The notes under the pieces: generated by a model | Seen by the model: only the letters and a program-made list of their open reading frames with translations | The model's database searches: none | What the model was told of the DNA's origin: nothing | Program-made: the position numbers and the translations under genes | From: Gammaproteobacteria bacterium | Lineage (GTDB): Bacteria > Pseudomonadota > Gammaproteobacteria > Steroidobacterales > Steroidobacteraceae | Direction of reading: 5' to 3' | Assembly: GCA_947455595.1 (NCBI GenBank) | Contig: CANGOP010000017.1 | Coordinates: 1 to 64,000, forward strand | DNA length: 64,000 nt | Part shown: one piece after another, positions 55,747 through 63,729 of the stretch | How positions within the stretch are numbered: position 1 is the first letter of the stretch | How the letters are laid out: the number at the start of each line of letters is the position of its first letter

Positions 55747-57264
55747 CTACCTCCGGATCGGACTGTGGCGGTCGACGCGAGATTTAGCAACCGCATTGCG
55801 GAGGAGAATGCGCCCACGTCCATTGCGAATTTCGAGCAGGTGCCCGATTTCGGGGCACAGATCCGTCGCATGGTGAGCTGCGACGAGCAATTGCACTCCG
55901 GACTGTGCCAACGAAGATAACAATGCCCTCACTTGCGCTCGGAAAGGGGCGTCCAGCCCCGTCAATGGCTCGTCCAACAACAATGCCTCAGGCTTAAGCA
56001 CCAAAGCGCGGGCAAACAAGACAAGACGTCGTTGGCCGTAAGACAAAATTCGCACGGACGCACCGAAGGATCCGGAAAATCCAACCAGTTCAAGCGCGGC
56101 ATGCGCGCGGCGGCGCTCGGCAGCGGTTGCGCGACGCAGTAATCCAAAACTCAAACGCTCACCGCTGACGACGAACTCTTCCACTGACAAGTCATCAAGG
56201 TATTCGGTTTGTAACTCTGGCGATACGAATCCGAGTCGACGACGCCACTCCTCGATGTGGACGCCCAATTCATAACCCCGACGCCGTACCTGCCCACGTG
56301 AAGCGAAGGGCAACAATCCGTAGACCGCCTGCAGGAGCGTTGATTTACCCGAACCATTCGCGCCAAGAATGGCCCAGTGTTCACCTGCCCCGACGGTCCA
56401 GTCCAAACCCCGAATCACAGGGCGATAGTCTCGGTATAGCCACGCGTCCCGCAGTTCCAGCAGCGGTTGCTCGCTTGAGGCGATGGAGGGCAAGGCGCAC
56501 GATGCTCCCTGACCCTCCAGCGTCAACCAGTGCTGCGGCGCATCCGCAAGTGGCCCGTCGTACTCGATTTGACCGTCTCGCAAGACGACGGCACGGCCAA
56601 ATAGCGACGAGACATCATCAACGCGGTGAGCGGCCATGACCAACGTGGTGCCGCGCTGAGCCAACCGACAAAGCTCGCGGTCCAATACCCGTCGCGTCTG
56701 CGTATCCAGACCGTTATGAACCTCGTCTAACAGGATTAACGCTGGATTGCCTGCAAGTGCCCTCGCAATCAGTACACGTCGTTTCTCGCCATAGGAGAGC
56801 GTCAGAAATCGCCGGCGGGCCAACCGCTCCAGCGAAAAGCGCTTCAACAAGGCCCTTACGCGGGATCGTTCCGCGGGCTTCAAGCGAACGATCGGGCGGA
56901 CGGTATTGTGGACCCCGGTCGACACCACGCGCTGAACCGTGAAGTTCCAGTCGTAGCGGTAGTACTTATCCTGACGCTCACCACCGATAAATTCGATCCT
57001 CGGCAGCGCTTCGGTGGTCTCCACAAGAGCACCGTCCGCTGAGTAATAGTGTCGGTACTCATCACCGCGCGCCGTCGGCGTTGGCCAGCGCTCGCCGCCC
57101 AGCAATTTGAGAAGCTGCGTCTTACCCGCCCCGTTGGGCCCCAACAAGAGCAATCGCGAGCCGGCGGGAATATCGAGGTCAAGCGGGCCCAGCACGGTTC
57201 GGCCACCCAGAACGAGAGCAGCACGATGGCAGGCAATGCGAAAGCCGTTCACAGCGCGCGCCAT
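55747..57264 (-). CDS. Double ABC ATPase, ModF-like
   Basis: A 505-residue soluble protein with two ABC ATPase domains in tandem. Domain one has Walker A GPNGAGKT, signature LSYGEKRRVL and Walker B LILLDEVHNGLD. Domain two has Walker A GANGSGKST, signature LSYGQRRLVL and Walker B ALLLDEPLTGLD. No membrane domain is present. The layout and length match ModF (PhrA), encoded near molybdate-transport genes in E. coli, and here it is 1.4 kb from a molybdenum-cofactor operon. The ATG at 57264 lies 16 bases inside the upstream MBL gene. Confidence 0.85.
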   Translation of the reverse strand: MARAVNGFRIACHRAALVLGGRTVLGPLDLDIPAGSRLLLLGPNGAGKTQLLKLLGGERWPTPTARGDEYRHYYSADGALVETTEALPRIEFIGGERQDKYYRYDWNFTVQRVVSTGVHNTVRPIVRLKPAERSRVRALLKRFSLERLARRRFLTLSYGEKRRVLIARALAGNPALILLDEVHNGLDTQTRRVLDRELCRLAQRGTTLVMAAHRVDDVSSLFGRAVVLRDGQIEYDGPLADAPQHWLTLEGQGASCALPSIASSEQPLLELRDAWLYRDYRPVIRGLDWTVGAGEHWAILGANGSGKSTLLQAVYGLLPFASRGQVRRRGYELGVHIEEWRRRLGFVSPELQTEYLDDLSVEEFVVSGERLSFGLLRRATAAERRRAHAALELVGFSGSFGASVRILSYGQRRLVLFARALVLKPEALLLDEPLTGLDAPFRAQVRALLSSLAQSGVQLLVAAHHATDLCPEIGHLLEIRNGRGRILLRNAVAKSRVDRHSPIRR

Positions 57265-58100
57265 GCATCCTCGCCGCAAACCGCGACCCGATTCTCCTCT
57301 TCCAATTTCACGAGGTGTGCAAGCAGCGTGTGCCGGGCCATTTCATGAAGCGCCTTCGGGACATCGGTGTAGACCTTCGGCAGCATCGCGGCGACCGAAT
57401 GACACGCGCCATCCGCCAATGCCGCGAGCACCCTGTGCTCCCGCAGGTGTCGATGGGCCGCCAAACGGTCGATGATTTTCGCAGGATCGTGCACGACCGG
57501 CCCATGACCCGGCAGCAGGGCCGCGGGATGCAGTTGTTTGACCTTCTCGAGTGATGCGAGGTAGTCCCGAAGACTACCGTCTGGGTGCACGATGACCGGA
57601 GAAACACTCCCAAGAATATGATCTCCGGTGCAGACGTACCCTGGTTGCACGAGGTGCCAACAGACGTGGTTCGACGCATGTCCGGGCGTCAAGATGGCGC
57701 GTAAAGGACCCAGATCCGTTTCAATCTGATCACCATCTTCAACGCTGCGGTTAGGTTGGAAATGAGGGTCTTGATATTGCCGGTCCCGGGGCGGCCGCCC
57801 AATCAGGTGTACGCCGAGCCGTTCTGCCAAGGGAAACGCCGCTGGGGAATGGTCAATGTGGGTATGGGTGACCACAATCGCCTCTACCGTCGATGAACCC
57901 ACTGCCCGCTCAATTGCCTCCACCTGGCCATCAATGGCGGGGCCTGGATCCACGATGACAACCCGTTTTTTCCCCAAAAGGTAGGTATTGGTGCCGGGCC
58001 CGGTCATCATGCCGCCATTGGCCGCGACGACACGGCGGACCCCAACGGCAAGTTCAACGACCCGGCCTGGGGTGAAATCGGTCGATTCCAAAAATGCCAT
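57249..58100 (-). CDS. MBL-fold metallo-hydrolase, LACTB2-like
   Basis: A 283-residue metallo-beta-lactamase-fold hydrolase. The ATG at 58100 has GGAG six bases upstream. The metal motif THTHIDHSPAAF is followed by the later ligands in LTPGHASNH, YVCTGDHILG and LLPGHGPV. A C-terminal winged-helix-like region (HREHRVLAALADG type) is shared with LACTB2-like proteins, some of which are ribonucleases. The substrate is unknown. It overlaps the ABC ATPase gene by 16 bases. It diverges from a small exported-protein gene, with 147 bases between them. Confidence 0.88.
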   Translation of the reverse strand: MAFLESTDFTPGRVVELAVGVRRVVAANGGMMTGPGTNTYLLGKKRVVIVDPGPAIDGQVEAIERAVGSSTVEAIVVTHTHIDHSPAAFPLAERLGVHLIGRPPRDRQYQDPHFQPNRSVEDGDQIETDLGPLRAILTPGHASNHVCWHLVQPGYVCTGDHILGSVSPVIVHPDGSLRDYLASLEKVKQLHPAALLPGHGPVVHDPAKIIDRLAAHRHLREHRVLAALADGACHSVAAMLPKVYTDVPKALHEMARHTLLAHLVKLEEENRVAVCGEDAWRAL

Positions 58101-58637: not shown

Positions 58638-59825
58638 ATGCTAACGCCCGCTGAGGCCTCGTCGGCGATCGGCGCTTCGCTGACGCCCATCGCCGACGAA
58701 ACGGTGCCGCTAGAAGCCGCCGCGGGCCGCATTCTGGCGGAAACGCTCGTCGCAGAACGGGACCTCCCGCCGTTTGACCGCGTCGCGATGGATGGGATCG
58801 CGATCCGCCATCGCGCGTGGGCGGCGGGCGGTCGTCGCTACCGTGTGGAGGGCGTGGTCGGAGCCGGAAGTGAACCGGCGGCGCTGAACGATGATGGCCA
58901 ATGCCTTGAGGTTATGACGGGCGCGATGCTGCCGCCGGGAGCCGATACCGTCATCCCGGTCGAATCGATCCGCTTCGCCGACGGCTTTGCCGTTCTAGGC
59001 AACGAGCCCGTCATTGTGGGTGCCAACGTGCATCGACAGGCCAGCGATGGAGACGCCGGTGACATCGCCCTGACCATCGGCACTCGGCTGCGCGGCCCGG
59101 AGCTCGCGGTCGCCGCCTCCGTCGGTCGAGGGACCGTGCGCGTCTCGCGAAGCCCCCAAATCGCCATCATTTCGACTGGGGACGAATTGGTCGGACCGAA
59201 CGTCTCGATTCAGCCTTGGCAAATCCGGCGATCCAATGCACATGGGATCGCCGCATTGCTGCGTGAGCGCGGGCATTCAGATCTCGTTGATGTCCACGTA
59301 AGCGATGATCGCCCGCTACTCACCGAGCGGATCTCGACATTACTCGCGACGCGCGACGTGCTGATCCTCTCGGGAGGCGTCTCCGCCGGTCGATTCGACT
59401 ATGTGCCGGGGGTTTTAAGCGATCTGGGCGTGCGCCGAATTTTTCATAAAGTCGCCCAGCGGCCGGGCAAACCCCTTTGGTTCGGCGTTTCAGCCGAGGG
59501 GAAACCGGTCTTCGCCCTGCCGGGCAATCCGGTTTCAACCCTCGTGTGCTTGGTTCGCTACGTACTCCCAGCCCTTGATCGCCTGTGTGGCCGGCCGCCA
59601 ACAACGCCACCCGGAGTGGTACTGGACAATGGATGGCCCGGGACTGGAGCGCTCACGGCCTTTATTCCGGTCGTACGCTCTGGCGACGGTAGCGCAAGCG
59701 TTCGACTGCACCAGACCAGAGGATCGGGTGATTTCATCTCGCTCGTCAACACCGAGGGATTCGTTGAGCTACCGCCGGGACAGCCTTTGCCCCCCGGATC
59801 GACGGTTCCGTTCTACACTTGGTAA
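58638..59825 (+). CDS. moeA: Molybdopterin molybdotransferase MoeA
   Basis: MoeA inserts molybdate into adenylylated molybdopterin in the last step of cofactor synthesis. It has 395 residues. The N-terminal part has LPPFDRVAMDGIAI and the MoCF-binding domain has ISTGDELVG, ILSGGVSAGRFDYV and ALPGNPVSTLVC, all conserved. A C-terminal beta domain follows. It is the first molybdenum-cofactor gene of a tightly packed operon. moaA starts 2 bases after its stop. No mogA or moaB gene for the adenylylation step is in the window. Confidence 0.96.
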   Translation: MLTPAEASSAIGASLTPIADETVPLEAAAGRILAETLVAERDLPPFDRVAMDGIAIRHRAWAAGGRRYRVEGVVGAGSEPAALNDDGQCLEVMTGAMLPPGADTVIPVESIRFADGFAVLGNEPVIVGANVHRQASDGDAGDIALTIGTRLRGPELAVAASVGRGTVRVSRSPQIAIISTGDELVGPNVSIQPWQIRRSNAHGIAALLRERGHSDLVDVHVSDDRPLLTERISTLLATRDVLILSGGVSAGRFDYVPGVLSDLGVRRIFHKVAQRPGKPLWFGVSAEGKPVFALPGNPVSTLVCLVRYVLPALDRLCGRPPTTPPGVVLDNGWPGTGALTAFIPVVRSGDGSASVRLHQTRGSGDFISLVNTEGFVELPPGQPLPPGSTVPFYTW

Positions 59826-59827
59826 CC

Positions 59828-60868
59828 ATGAGTGAAATCGTCCTTCTGAAAGACCCCGCCCGGCCGCTCGATCAACGCGGCCGGGCAATGCATGACCTGC
59901 GCATATCGGTCATGGATCGATGTAATTTTCGATGCACGTACTGCATGCCGAAAGATACGTTTGGCGAAGGCTATCGTTTCCTGTCGTCGGCTGAACGCCT
60001 ATCTTTTGACGAAATTACCCGTCTAGCGGGCCTATTCGTTGGCTTGGGTGTCCGAAAACTACGTCTGACGGGCGGAGAGCCTCTGCTGAGGGCGGGCTTA
60101 CCGGAACTTATCGGGGACTTAGCCGCGCTACCGGGTATTGAGGACGTTGCACTCACCACTAACGGCGTACTGCTGCCCCGCCATGCTGCCGACTTGAAGG
60201 CGCAGGGCCTCGGGCGTGTCACGGTCAGTTTGGATTCGCTCGACCCCGACGTATTCCGTCATATGTCGGGTGGATTCGGCTCCCCAACGGAAGTTTTAAA
60301 CGGCATCGACGCTGCCCTTAATGCAGGACTAGGCCCCATCAAGGTCAATTGCGTCGTTCAGCGCGGCGTGAATGACCACACGATTCTGGACCTCGTCAAA
60401 CACTTTCGCGGCACGCCCGTCATCGTCCGTTTGATTGAATACATGGACGTGGGCAATCGAAATCATTGGAATCTTGAGCGCGTCGTAACCGCACGCGATC
60501 TACAGACCGAAATCAACGCAACATGGCCCCTCGTGCCCGTCGCTCCAGGGTATTCAGGAGAAGTCGCCGAGCGTTACGCCTACGCCGACGGCGCCGGCGA
60601 GATTGGGTTTATCGCGTCAGTGAGCCAGCCTTTCTGCGGCGACTGCACGCGGGCCCGACTGTCCTCAGAAGGAGTCCTGTATACCTGCCTCTTCGCCAGT
60701 CATGGAATCGACCTGCGCGCCTTATTGCGCAGCGGGGCCACCGACAACGACCTGGAAGAGCGGATTCGAGGAACTTGGCTCTCGCGCAATGATCGATATA
60801 GCGAGCTTCGCGCCGATCACACAGCGACGCCGGAGCGCAAGATCGAAATGTATTACATCGGTGGTTGA
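59828..60868 (+). CDS. moaA: GTP 3',8-cyclase MoaA
   Basis: MoaA is a radical-SAM enzyme that starts molybdopterin synthesis from GTP. The 346-residue product has the N-terminal cluster motif CNFRCTYC. The C-terminal cluster region is [19 protein letters not shown], and the protein ends in the functional Gly-Gly tail (YYIGG). The ATG at 59828 is preferred over a TTG three codons earlier. Its TGA overlaps the moaC ATG by one base. Confidence 0.96.
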
Positions 60869-61341
60869 TGAACACGCTGACACATGTTGATGCCGACGGT
60901 CGCCCCACCATGGTGGATGTCGGAGGCAAAGTGGCTTCCGCTCGCGTTGCCGTCGCAGAAGCGAGAGTTCGGCTACCTCATCACGTAGCCCAAAGCCTCG
61001 CGCAAGCTGGGTTTTCCACCAAGAAGGGCCCTGTGTTTGCGACCGCGATTATTGCGGGAACAATGGCCGCGAAGCGGACCCATGAACTGATTCCGTTTTG
61101 CCATCCGCTCGGTCTCGAAAAGTGTTCCATTGATATCTCCACCGATGGCGATGAAGTGGTTATCCGTTGCGAAGTCGGCGTTCATCATAAAACAGGCGTC
61201 GAAATGGAGGCGCTGACCGGCGCGAGCGTAGCGGCACTTACGGTCTACGACATGTGCAAAGCGCTTTCTCATGAAATCGTTATTGAGAACACACGCCTGG
61301 TCGAGAAACGAGGCGGAAAAAGCGATTTCGGTACTCGGTAA
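60868..61341 (+). CDS. moaC: Cyclic pyranopterin monophosphate synthase MoaC
   Basis: MoaC converts the MoaA product to cyclic pyranopterin monophosphate. From the ATG at 60868 it has 157 residues. [32 protein letters not shown] and [20 protein letters not shown] are the family hallmarks and include the catalytic lysine and aspartate. It overlaps moaA by one base and mobA by one base (TAATG). Confidence 0.97.
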
Positions 61342-61946
61342 TGTCCAACCCCCCGCCTATCGCTGGACTCGTCTTATCAGGCGGTCATAGCAAGCGCATG
61401 CAACGCGACAAGGCTGCATTGCTGATCGATGGCCAACACCAGTTGGGACGTGCCGTGGCATTGCTGCGCCACGTTTGCGCCGACGTTTTTGTCTCAGTCC
61501 GACCGGACCAGATCAACGACCCAATGCGCAGCCAGTATCCTCAGGTAATTGATCAAATTCAGGATGTCGGACCGGCAGCCGGGATTTTGGCTGCATTCGC
61601 ACTGAGACCCGACCACGCCTGGTTGATCGCCGCGGTTGATCTGCCTCTACTGGATGCCGCGACACTCAATCAACTCGTGAGCGAGCGAAATCCTCAGTTG
61701 ATGGCGACCGCATTCGTCAGCGCGCACGACGGGCTACCGGAACCGCTCTGTACTATCTGGGAACCCGCAAGCCGTGCGCCGTTAGAGACGTTTCTCAGTG
61801 GCGGTCGCAGTTGCCCACGAAAATTTCTACTCAATCATCCGACTCAGCTCATCCAATTGAGTTCGTCGAATACCTTGGCCAACGTCAACACGCCCGAAGA
61901 GTATGCTGCAACTGTTATAGCCTTAGGGCGCGGAGGCTCTGAATGA
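61341..61946 (+). CDS. mobA: Molybdenum cofactor guanylyltransferase MobA
   Basis: MobA adds GMP to the molybdenum cofactor to make the guanine dinucleotide form used by DMSO-reductase-family enzymes. The 201-residue protein starts with the nucleotide motif LVLSGGHSKRMQRDKA, in which His replaces the more common Arg/Lys after GG. It also has AVDLPLLDAATL for metal binding and a C-terminal NVNTPEEY. It overlaps moaD by four bases. A CTP- or other NTP-transferase role is possible but less likely in this context. Confidence 0.9.
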   Translation: MSNPPPIAGLVLSGGHSKRMQRDKAALLIDGQHQLGRAVALLRHVCADVFVSVRPDQINDPMRSQYPQVIDQIQDVGPAAGILAAFALRPDHAWLIAAVDLPLLDAATLNQLVSERNPQLMATAFVSAHDGLPEPLCTIWEPASRAPLETFLSGGRSCPRKFLLNHPTQLIQLSSSNTLANVNTPEEYAATVIALGRGGSE

Positions 61947-62185
61947 CCAACATCCGTATCCAATACTATGCACTCCTGCGCGAGCAAGCCGGTATGAGCC
62001 GCGAAACCGTGCAAACGAACGCAGCCGATGCCGCAGCGCTGTATGAAGAATTGCGGCAGCGCCACTCCTTTTCCCTGTCCAAGTCACAACTGCGCGTTGC
62101 CATCAATGGCGAATTTGCAGATTGGGAATCCGCACTGTCCGACGGGCAGGATGTCGTGTTTATCCCACCGGTTGCGGGGGGCTGA
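61943..62185 (+). CDS. moaD: Molybdopterin synthase sulfur carrier subunit MoaD
   Basis: MoaD is a ubiquitin-like protein that carries sulfur as a C-terminal thiocarboxylate to MoaE. It has 80 residues and ends in VFIPPVAGG, the Gly-Gly tail that MoeB adenylylates. It overlaps mobA by four bases and is followed after 2 bases by the fused moaE-moeB gene, so all the MoaD-handling domains are encoded together. Confidence 0.96.
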   Translation: MTNIRIQYYALLREQAGMSRETVQTNAADAAALYEELRQRHSFSLSKSQLRVAINGEFADWESALSDGQDVVFIPPVAGG

Positions 62186-62187
62186 TC

Positions 62188-63729
62188 TTGCGCGCGTTTG
62201 CTTTCTCAGATTCGGCCTTGGACTTAGCCGCTCTGCGCTCGACCGTTGAGGATCGTTCGTGCGGCGGCTATGTCAGTTTTGAAGGCTGGGTGCGGGACCA
62301 TAATGACGGCCAGCAGGTCGAACGTTTGGAGTACGAGGCATTCGAATTGCTCGCCGTAAAAGAGGGCGAGCGAATCATCGAGGAAGCCGTTCGTCGCTTT
62401 GGTGTCACGCAAGCGCGCTGCATTCACCGCGTGGGACTACTCGAACTCGGACAGGTGGCTGTTTGGGTAGGCGTGAGTTCCCCGCATCGCGGAGAGGCGT
62501 TTGCAGCCTGCCGTTACATCATCGATGAAGTGAAGCACCGGGTCCCGATTTGGAAAAAGGAGTATTACGTCTCCGGGAACTCGGGTTGGGTCAATTGTGA
62601 GCGTTGCGCATCTGCCGCGCACGACCACGATAACGACCACGACCACGACCATGACCATGACCATGACCATGACCAGAAATCAGTCACCCGTCATCCAGAG
62701 GGGCTGCCCGCATCCGACTACTCGCGTCAACAAGTTCTTGCTGAGGTGGGGCCTCATGGACAGGCACGGATCCGCGGGGCTCGCGTGCTCGTCATCGGCG
62801 CAGGTGGACTTGGCGTCCCGGTGCTGTCTTACCTTGCTGGGGCTGGGGTTGGCACCCTCGGGATCATGGACGGAGACACTCTCGATGCCTCCAACCTACA
62901 CCGGCAAACCCTTTACGCCCTGCAAGATACCGGCCGACCCAAAGCACTGCTCGCCGCCGAGCGTTTGCGGGCTTTGAACCCTGAGGTAGATGTCCGTCCC
63001 TACGTTGAAAACGCAAGTCGACAGAATCTGAGTGGCATCGCGGCCGGATACGACGTGATCGTGGACTGCTCGGATAACTTTACGGCTCGATTCTTGGTGA
63101 ATGATGTGGCCGTGACGCTTGGGAAGCCAGCCGTCCTTGCCAGCGTCTACCAATACGAGGGGCAGTTACAGGTTGTCACCGCCAATAGCGCTTGCTTGCG
63201 TTGTCTCTGGCCAGAGGGCACTGCCGATGGGACCGTCGGCAACTGCGCGCAAGCCGGCGTTCTCGGTCCGGTACCTGGCGTCTTGGGCAGTCTGCAAGCA
63301 CTGGAAGTCCTCAAAGTTATCCTGGATATCGACTCGCCTGCCCGGTCGAGCGTCATTCTCGTCGATCTGCGGACGTTGGAAAGCCAACATTTGACGACCA
63401 AGCGAGCGACCAATTGCCCTGCGCATTGTTTGAACGCCCTCCAGAGCGAATCCGGAGCTGACGACGACATCGGTATTTCGATTACCTTGCCGACGTCAGA
63501 CTGGATCGTCGTCGATGTTCGCGAGCCCAATGAGGTAGCCGCGCAACCGTTACCGGGTCCGAGCGTGCATATTCCACTCGGCCAATTACTCGATCATCCA
63601 GAAAAGCTGGCAGACAACTCGAAATACTTGTGCGTTTGTGCCCGTGGAAAACGTGCACTGGCAGCGTCCAAAGCACTACGCCTCGCGGGCCGAGATGCCG
63701 TGTACCTGATCGGCGGTTACCCAGGCTGA
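62188..63729 (+). CDS. MoaE-MoeB-rhodanese fusion protein
   Basis: A 513-residue fusion. Residues 1-141 are MoaE, the catalytic subunit of molybdopterin synthase (VSFEGWVRDHN, SSPHRGEAF, VPIWKKEYY). Residues 142-176 are a linker with an alternating His-Asp run (145-162). Residues 177-400 are a MoeB/ThiF adenylyltransferase (VLVIGAGGLGVPVLSY, SNLHRQ, CLRC, NCAQAGVLGPVPG). From about 425 a rhodanese domain follows, with Cys484 in CARGKR. The start is TTG at 62188 after GGGGGG; an ATG at 62122 would overlap moaD. The protein could charge MoaD with sulfur and use it for molybdopterin synthesis within one chain. Confidence 0.92.
   Translation: MRAFAFSDSALDLAALRSTVEDRSCGGYVSFEGWVRDHNDGQQVERLEYEAFELLAVKEGERIIEEAVRRFGVTQARCIHRVGLLELGQVAVWVGVSSPHRGEAFAACRYIIDEVKHRVPIWKKEYYVSGNSGWVNCERCASAAHDHDNDHDHDHDHDHDHDQKSVTRHPEGLPASDYSRQQVLAEVGPHGQARIRGARVLVIGAGGLGVPVLSYLAGAGVGTLGIMDGDTLDASNLHRQTLYALQDTGRPKALLAAERLRALNPEVDVRPYVENASRQNLSGIAAGYDVIVDCSDNFTARFLVNDVAVTLGKPAVLASVYQYEGQLQVVTANSACLRCLWPEGTADGTVGNCAQAGVLGPVPGVLGSLQALEVLKVILDIDSPARSSVILVDLRTLESQHLTTKRATNCPAHCLNALQSESGADDDIGISITLPTSDWIVVDVREPNEVAAQPLPGPSVHIPLGQLLDHPEKLADNSKYLCVCARGKRALAASKALRLAGRDAVYLIGGYPG
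62620..62673 (+). repeat. Hexanucleotide tandem repeat encoding (His-Asp)n
   Basis: Nine tandem hexamers lie within the fused moaE-moeB gene: CACGAC, CACGAT, AACGAC, CACGAC twice, then CATGAC four times. The last four identical copies suggest recent expansion by slippage. Six-base steps keep the frame. The encoded run has eight histidines and nine aspartates, with one asparagine, and could bind divalent metal. Confidence 0.9.

Follow-up and report, generated by a model that had tools for sequence, protein, structure and literature searches.

A MoaE-MoeB-rhodanese fusion protein as a probable one-chain system for loading and using the sulfur carrier MoaD

In a 64,000-nucleotide stretch of a Steroidobacteraceae genome (GCA_947455595.1, contig CANGOP010000017.1; hereafter the window), a single gene joins MoaE, MoeB and rhodanese domains directly after moaD. 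We consider it highly probable that this gene encodes a trifunctional enzyme of the second step of molybdenum cofactor synthesis, which loads MoaD with sulfur and uses it in one chain. Its domains, residues, gene order, gene complement and phylogeny support this reading, and we infer from them that the fused protein would be catalytically active and probably dimeric, that persulfide would flow through it and that tethering may bring a kinetic gain.

The fused gene and its domains

The gene (62188-63729, forward strand, stop included) is a single 513-codon frame with a TTG start and no internal stop, encodes 513 aa and is conserved in frame among relatives. The TTG is plausibly the right start, an ATG or GTG standing in the same alignment column in 15 of 24 relatives; in the other nine the start was chosen by script and lies further in. 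Pfam places the MoaE domain (molybdopterin (MPT) synthase catalytic subunit) at residues 8-118 (62209-62541, +), with R36, H100, R101 and K116 inside it and K123 just past its end. It is followed by the MoaE C-terminal tail or linker (62596-62706, +), where CERC (C137, C140) precedes a His/Asp-rich stretch, by the ThiF/MoeB adenylyltransferase (E1-like) domain at residues 178-411 (62719-63420, +), and by the rhodanese domain at residues 437-512 (63496-63723, +), with its active-site Cys C484 in the motif CARGKR. The MoaE domain scores 123.9 bits against the curated cut-off of 23.4 for PF02391, and the ThiF (239 bits, PF00899) and rhodanese (32.2 bits) domains also lie above their Pfam cut-offs, which rules out chance domain matches in the frame. 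The three-domain protein proposed in the original prediction is thus borne out by Pfam and by conservation in relatives.

The protein scores under the NCBIfam cut-offs of the MoaE equivalog NF007959 (84 bits, cut-off 175), the MoeB model TIGR02355 (157.6 bits, cut-off 376.55), the subfamily model NF004281 (206.2 bits, cut-off 266) and its top NCBIfam match, NF006444 (279.1 bits, cut-off 449). Its layout is that of MoeBR, with a rhodanese carrying the active Cys C-terminal to ThiF, and it is not of the MoaX type, since MoaD is encoded by a separate gene.

Active-site residues and predicted structure

Residues, linkers and moaD genes were counted over fused loci, with duplicates and second fetches of the same loci (L152-L181, L208 and others) excluded. 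The active-site motifs noticed earlier in all three domains proved near-invariant over 87 fused proteins. When the window MoaE domain was aligned with five solved MoaE chains, the residues followed were those that we take to be equivalent to K119, K126, R39 and H103 in E. coli numbering; R36, H100, R101, K116 and K123 are each present in 87/87 fused proteins. The active-site lysine of MoaE is given as K119 / K240 in the accessible text of PMC4443979. In the ThiF domain, the nucleotide-loop glycines G204 and G206 are kept in 87/87 and G209 in 84/87, and R239, K252 and D296 in 87/87 each. C353 is kept in all 83 fused proteins that cover the position and aligns with a Cys of Uba4, presumably the catalytic one. 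The first CXXC pair is present (C336 in 85/86, C339 in 84/86), whereas the second pair of MoeB/MoeBR is altered, reading CPAHC in the window and C-x2-5-C in 64/82 fused proteins. The rhodanese C484 occurs in 80/81 and R489 in 79/81 fused proteins; Cys is missing from the C484 column in L078.

The structural model of the window protein (pLDDT 78.3, pTM 0.50, much of the tail below 50 pLDDT) is good within domains and leaves the placement between domains undefined. A short-linker relative (L060), modelled with 46 alignment rows, reached pLDDT 92.5 and pTM 0.71, with Uba4, ThiF and MoeB as its top PDB matches. Among the best 50 Foldseek matches for each of these two models, E1-type chains and Uba4 were found and none was described as holding MoaE.

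A molybdenum cofactor gene run with one carrier

The fused gene is the last of a forward-strand run comprising moeA (58638-59825, Pfam), moaA (59819-60868) and moaC (60865-61341), both above NCBIfam cut-offs, mobA (61341-61946, a MobA-like NTP transferase gene with a 4-base overlap with moaD) and moaD (61943-62185, PF02597). The genes from moeA to moaD overlap by 1-7 bases, and moaD, encoding the sulfur carrier, ends 2 bases upstream of the fused gene, as originally noted. The window MoaD ends in ...PPVAGG. Downstream, on the opposite strand, lies the end of a proA-like gene. A ModF-like double ABC ATPase is encoded close to the cofactor run (55747-57279, reverse strand; 225.6 bits, under the cut-off of 459).

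This setting recurs among relatives. A MoaD with a GG end is encoded upstream, at most 200 bases from the MoaE domain, in 83/87 fused loci, and among the 42 fused loci with more than 4.5 kb upstream, matches anywhere in the locus were found to moaA in 39, moaC in 35, moeA in 32 and mobA in 28. The four loci without upstream MoaD are L010, which a contig end cuts off, L072, L077 and L084. Upstream of the fused gene in L072 (Lysobacter silvestris), no MoaD profile match was found within 6 kb. In L077 and L084, a 2Fe-2S ferredoxin-like frame, its translation judged by eye, occupies the usual moaD place.

In 11/15 genomes of the window's genus, no ThiF match at E <= 1e-20 other than the fused gene was found (in G006 it is in pieces), and the fused protein therefore looks dedicated to MoaD there; the other four (G001, G003, G010, G012) carry an additional lone MoeBR, that is, a second E1. 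A family search covered 15 genomes chosen because the fused gene gave the sole matching row. In 11/15 of these, including 9/9 of the genus, the fused gene was the only PF00899 match above cut-off, while G060, G066, G072 and G076 had further ThiF-family genes above cut-off. MoaD was the only PF02597 match above cut-off in 13/15, and in the window's genome (87.7% complete) moaD is the sole PF02597 match at E <= 0.001.

Conservation and spread

The survey of conservation covered 60 genomes: 59 relatives and the window's own. MoaE and ThiF share one frame in 14/14 other genomes of the window's genus. The fused gene of G006 was recovered as two pieces that overlap and lie at contig ends, and in G001 and G012 the contig stops within the rhodanese; the fused protein of G009 has 76% identity to the window protein over residues 2-511. 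Across the family's other genera (22 genomes), the gene is fused in 14, MoaE and E1 are apart in seven, and in one (G020) moaD, moaE and moeBR lie side by side, with a single stop separating moaE from moeBR. The order's other families, represented by 23 genomes, show the fusion in two (G039, G058), no fused match in 18 and no match in three. In one locus (L145, G035) MoaE is separate and the MoeBR frame is in two overlapping pieces, through decay or sequencing error.

A scan of named genomes used an alignment of 25 fused proteins as query, and the best 80 of 579 loci, found by MoaE patterns, were kept. In these, MoaE and ThiF shared one frame in 60, moaE and moeBR were neighbours in 12, and MoaE stood without nearby ThiF in eight; because the best 80 of 579 were chosen by patterns in MoaE, 60/80 is not a frequency. 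A rhodanese was found in 55 of these 60 fused loci, and four of the others (L052, L081, L083, L093) run off the end of their contig. In L100 (an Opitutus sp. bin), MoaE is joined to ThiF with no rhodanese in frame, though the contig continues. Among the best 80 of 579 loci, fused records bear at least 11 phylum names (Pseudomonadota, Hydrogenedentota, Kiritimatiellota, Lentisphaerota, Melainabacteria, Omnitrophota, Acidobacteriota, Armatimonadota, Zixiibacteriota, Bdellovibrionota and Verrucomicrobiota), and 14 of the 60 fused loci come, by title, from strains of Dyella, Rhodanobacter, Frateuria and Lysobacter. Outside Pseudomonadota, every fused record but Pontiellaceae B1224 has the title of a metagenome bin, and contamination of single records is therefore possible.

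In the phylum and class samples, the MoaE scan was run on matches made into loci, and other genomes were judged by match and frame length. An evenly drawn sample of Gammaproteobacteria held the fusion in 2/143 genomes, both in the window's family; a MoaE match was present in 66 genomes, and in these two alone it lies in a frame longer than 250 aa. In samples of the phyla of G062, G075 and G069, the fusion occurred in 3/59, 3/41 and 1/59 genomes, respectively, each count including the central genome. The original impression that the architecture is rare therefore holds for even samples, where it is uncommon, but not for the window's genus and family, where it is usual, and the fusion reaches at least 11 phylum names. 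On plasmids, 249 records matched at E <= 1e-20 and none covers 80% of the query. Two fused copies were seen in G063 (L062 and L180) and in G081 (C40, or L095, and C31, the latter judged from one 482-aa frame holding both matches).

Phylogeny of the E1 and MoaE domains

A quick ThiF-domain tree was built from 228 rows without bootstrap, excluding ThiF pieces below 140 aa or 100 bits. One branch (support 99) has on one side 88/88 fused rows, 13/17 moaE-adjacent rows and one lone row (L130, on a long branch), and on the other 122/123 lone rows with four adjacent rows of the same family and phyla (L106, L227, L275, L286). A further test used 82 of the 228 rows: 61/88 fused, 12/17 adjacent and 9/123 lone. 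The adjacent rows included L089, where a run of N at the moaE/moeBR junction leaves the label unsure. Here the 73 fused and adjacent rows were separated from the nine lone ones with support 100, the groups having been named after the first tree was known, and fused rows as one clade were rejected (AU p 4.4e-5). A separate origin of the fusion in each phylum, from local E1 genes, was considered as well and is unsupported because fused and adjacent rows group together against lone ones in both analyses.

The ThiF tree also contains moaE-adjacent, unfused members of this E1 lineage, including a nine-row clade, and their existence indicates that fusion is not required for function; such unfused moaD-moaE-moeBR neighbours had been overlooked in the original prediction. 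The MoaE tree has too few columns (122; 15/193 inner branches starred) to add to this, its fused and unfused rows being intermixed. The ThiF topologies suggest that this E1 lineage goes with moaE, that it has probably moved between phyla, and that the fused and split states have probably interconverted, with joining or splitting on more than one occasion.

The MoaE tail

Judged from the sequences, the segment between MoaE and ThiF is MoaE's own tail rather than a new linker, because many unfused MoaE proteins of the lineage share WVNCxxC and a His-rich end. This presence of the His/Asp-rich segment in unfused proteins had also escaped the first reading of the DNA. With the tail defined as CxxC plus at least five His in 20 residues, and rows with X omitted, it was counted in 37/87 fused and 18/44 unfused MoaE; CxxC with or without the His stretch was counted in 54/87 and 32/44, respectively. 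Tails of this kind in the lineage, fused or unfused, include those of the window, L027, L044, L102, L103, L133, L139, L140 and L143. The segment is 9 to 90 residues long in fused proteins (median 28), and His is absent from it in 10 of the fused proteins whose tails were compared, which shows that fusion does not depend on the His stretch. In the Gammaproteobacteria sample, both tail features occur in 3/67 MoaE loci, namely the window, G029 and G170. The G170 MoaE (L362) has a similar CxxC/His tail and is placed among common-type MoaE in the MoaE tree; its tail thus looks independently gained, and the feature has probably arisen more than once.

The tail would lie near the MPT synthase active site. 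It is conceivable, at long odds, that it forms a putative metal site there and passes a protecting metal such as copper to the newly made dithiolene. A 2004 paper reportedly deals, by its title, with Cnx1G and copper, and no paper on His-rich MoaE was found, judged by title, in the searchable open-licence literature. If this reading of the tail were true, the fused protein would be a sulfur-and-metal relay, running from the rhodanese persulfide to MoaD, the pterin and the metal.

Proposed function and alternative explanations

MoaE and MoeB are homodimers, and in E. coli MoaD must leave MoaE, be reloaded by MoeB and a sulfur donor, and then return. The known chemistry of MoeB/MOCS3/MoeBR and of MoaE, together with the residues kept, leads to the following proposed cycle. 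The ThiF domain would adenylylate the C-terminal glycine of separately made MoaD; the rhodanese would carry persulfide on C484 and, with C353, convert MoaD-AMP to the MoaD-thiocarboxylate. Loaded MoaD would then move to a MoaE domain within that protein, which is probably a dimer, and there its sulfur would pass to cyclic pyranopterin monophosphate via K116/K123, and spent MoaD would go back to the ThiF domain for reloading. The MoaE tail would act as a flexible tether, MoaD would be channelled between sites of a single chain, and the protein would replace separate MoaE and MoeBR. MoeB adenylation and rhodanese-driven thiocarboxylation are known reactions according to the accessible parts of PMC3227635 and PMC9370521. 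The earlier suggestion of a single chain able both to load MoaD and to use it gains support from the kept catalytic residues and the adjoining moaD.

One alternative, which we regard as possible if somewhat less probable than its converse, is that the fusion is selectively neutral: neighbouring operon genes would have lost or regained a stop, and the joined product would work as the separate enzymes do, without channelling. It denies only the benefit of tethering, so its odds and those of the trifunctional enzyme need not sum to one. The rejection of fused rows as a sole clade, in 82 of the 228 rows, fits such joining and splitting, as do the variable linker length and four loci (L027, L044, L046, L069) where the two genes share a frame and a single stop codon separates their open frames. 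Neutrality fits less well with the joined state of MoaE and ThiF in 15/15 genomes of the genus and its presence, active sites conserved, in far-diverged lineages.

Cutting of the fused protein, or re-initiation of translation, could also yield separate MoaE and MoeBR as the working units in the cell. We think this unlikely, even though MoaX, a MoaD-MoaE fusion, needs cleavage to work in the accessible account of PMC4326299, the tail is modelled with low confidence as expected of a disordered tail, and an ATG, GTG or TTG occurs in the linker of 52/87 fused genes (ATG in 13). Against it, MoaD is separate here, so that no C-terminus needs freeing, unlike in MoaX, and Prok-JAB (PF14464, the sole protease family searched) is above cut-off in 1/15 genomes and absent from the window's. 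The window linker (residues 138 to 180) has no in-frame ATG, GTG or TTG codon, and dual coding of a free MoeBR in the window gene was rejected for the same reason, though 52/87 fused genes have such a codon.

It is very unlikely that the E1 half chiefly serves other carriers, in ThiS-dependent reactions, tRNA thiolation or cysteine synthesis, with MoaE as a passenger. Mycobacterium MoeZR serves CysO as well as MoaD, as stated in the accessible portion of PMC3227635, but in the fused lineage MoaD is the sole carrier above the PF02597 cut-off in 13/15 genomes and adjoins the gene in 83/87 fused loci. Scarcely any weight is given to a further role of the tethered E1, the linking of MoaD to the active-site lysine of MoaE, which would shut the synthase off in the manner of Haloferax sampylation, where SAMP1 linked to MoaE K240 inhibits MoaE (PMC4443979, accessible text); the near-absence of Prok-JAB, above cut-off in 1/15 genomes and without a match in the window's genome, leaves no obvious enzyme to undo such a conjugate. 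Finally, a sequencing or assembly artefact that joined two genes, a doubt attached to the original prediction, is ruled out to near certainty. MoaE and ThiF share a frame in the other members of the genus (14/14) as well as in 14 fused Dyella, Rhodanobacter, Frateuria and Lysobacter records whose titles denote strains rather than bins (among the best 80 of 579 loci). No sign of an artefact was found for the window itself, though L089 illustrates how a locus may be mislabelled when its junction contains a run of N.

Relation to known systems and significance

Among the closest known systems are MOCS3, Cnx5, Uba4 and bacterial MoeBR. They share with the fused protein an E1-like ThiF domain and, C-terminal to it, a rhodanese acting in thiocarboxylation of the carrier, along with the first CXXC pair and the Cys aligned with C353. 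The fused protein differs from these in its N-terminal MoaE and altered second CXXC pair, and its ThiF domain belongs to a clade apart from the MoeBR sampled in the tree, all of them bacterial. The NF006444 (PRK08762 type) MoeB likewise has E1 and rhodanese in one chain, and its rhodanese is N-terminal. Rows with rhodanese before ThiF fall on the opposite side of the ThiF tree, whereas the rhodanese of the fused protein follows ThiF.

Other fusions also unite parts of the pathway. MoaX of Mycobacterium tuberculosis and other MoaD-MoaE fusions hold MPT synthase parts in one chain, as the fused protein does; MoaX unites carrier and MoaE and needs cleavage (PMC4326299, accessible text), whereas the carrier here is separate with a free GG end. 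The archaeal MoaD-MoeB and MoaD-MoeBR proteins similarly join E1, with or without rhodanese, to another protein of the second step, but link it to its carrier substrate and not to the carrier-consuming MoaE (available part of PMC11237513). MoaE is fused to another cofactor enzyme in Haloferax MobB-MoaE (PMC4443979) and archaeal MoaC-MoaE (PMC11237513); there the partner is different, and no E1 or rhodanese is named in the accessible parts of these papers. In surveys, as far as their accessible text goes, MoaD-MoaE and E1-rhodanese fusions are given in PMC1779556, MoaC-MoaE, MoaD-MoaE, MoaD-MoeB and MoaD-MoeBR fusions in PMC11237513, and fusions of molybdoproteins in PMC6147048, which covers ~5900 organisms. 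No MoaE-MoeB or MoaE-MoeB-rhodanese protein was found in the accessible text of open-licence papers, while InterPro may list the architecture. The fusion is thus apparently undescribed in the searchable open-licence literature, although each part apparently does the known job of its family.

For genome annotation, the finding implies that the joined gene may be present where moaE or moeB has been recorded as missing from a genome. In genomes found to have a single carrier and a single E1, the fused protein, which has both stations in one chain, offers a compact natural system for testing carrier channelling, and the naturally split relatives of the same lineage provide built-in controls. The fused enzyme is one that cofactor specialists would want to test.
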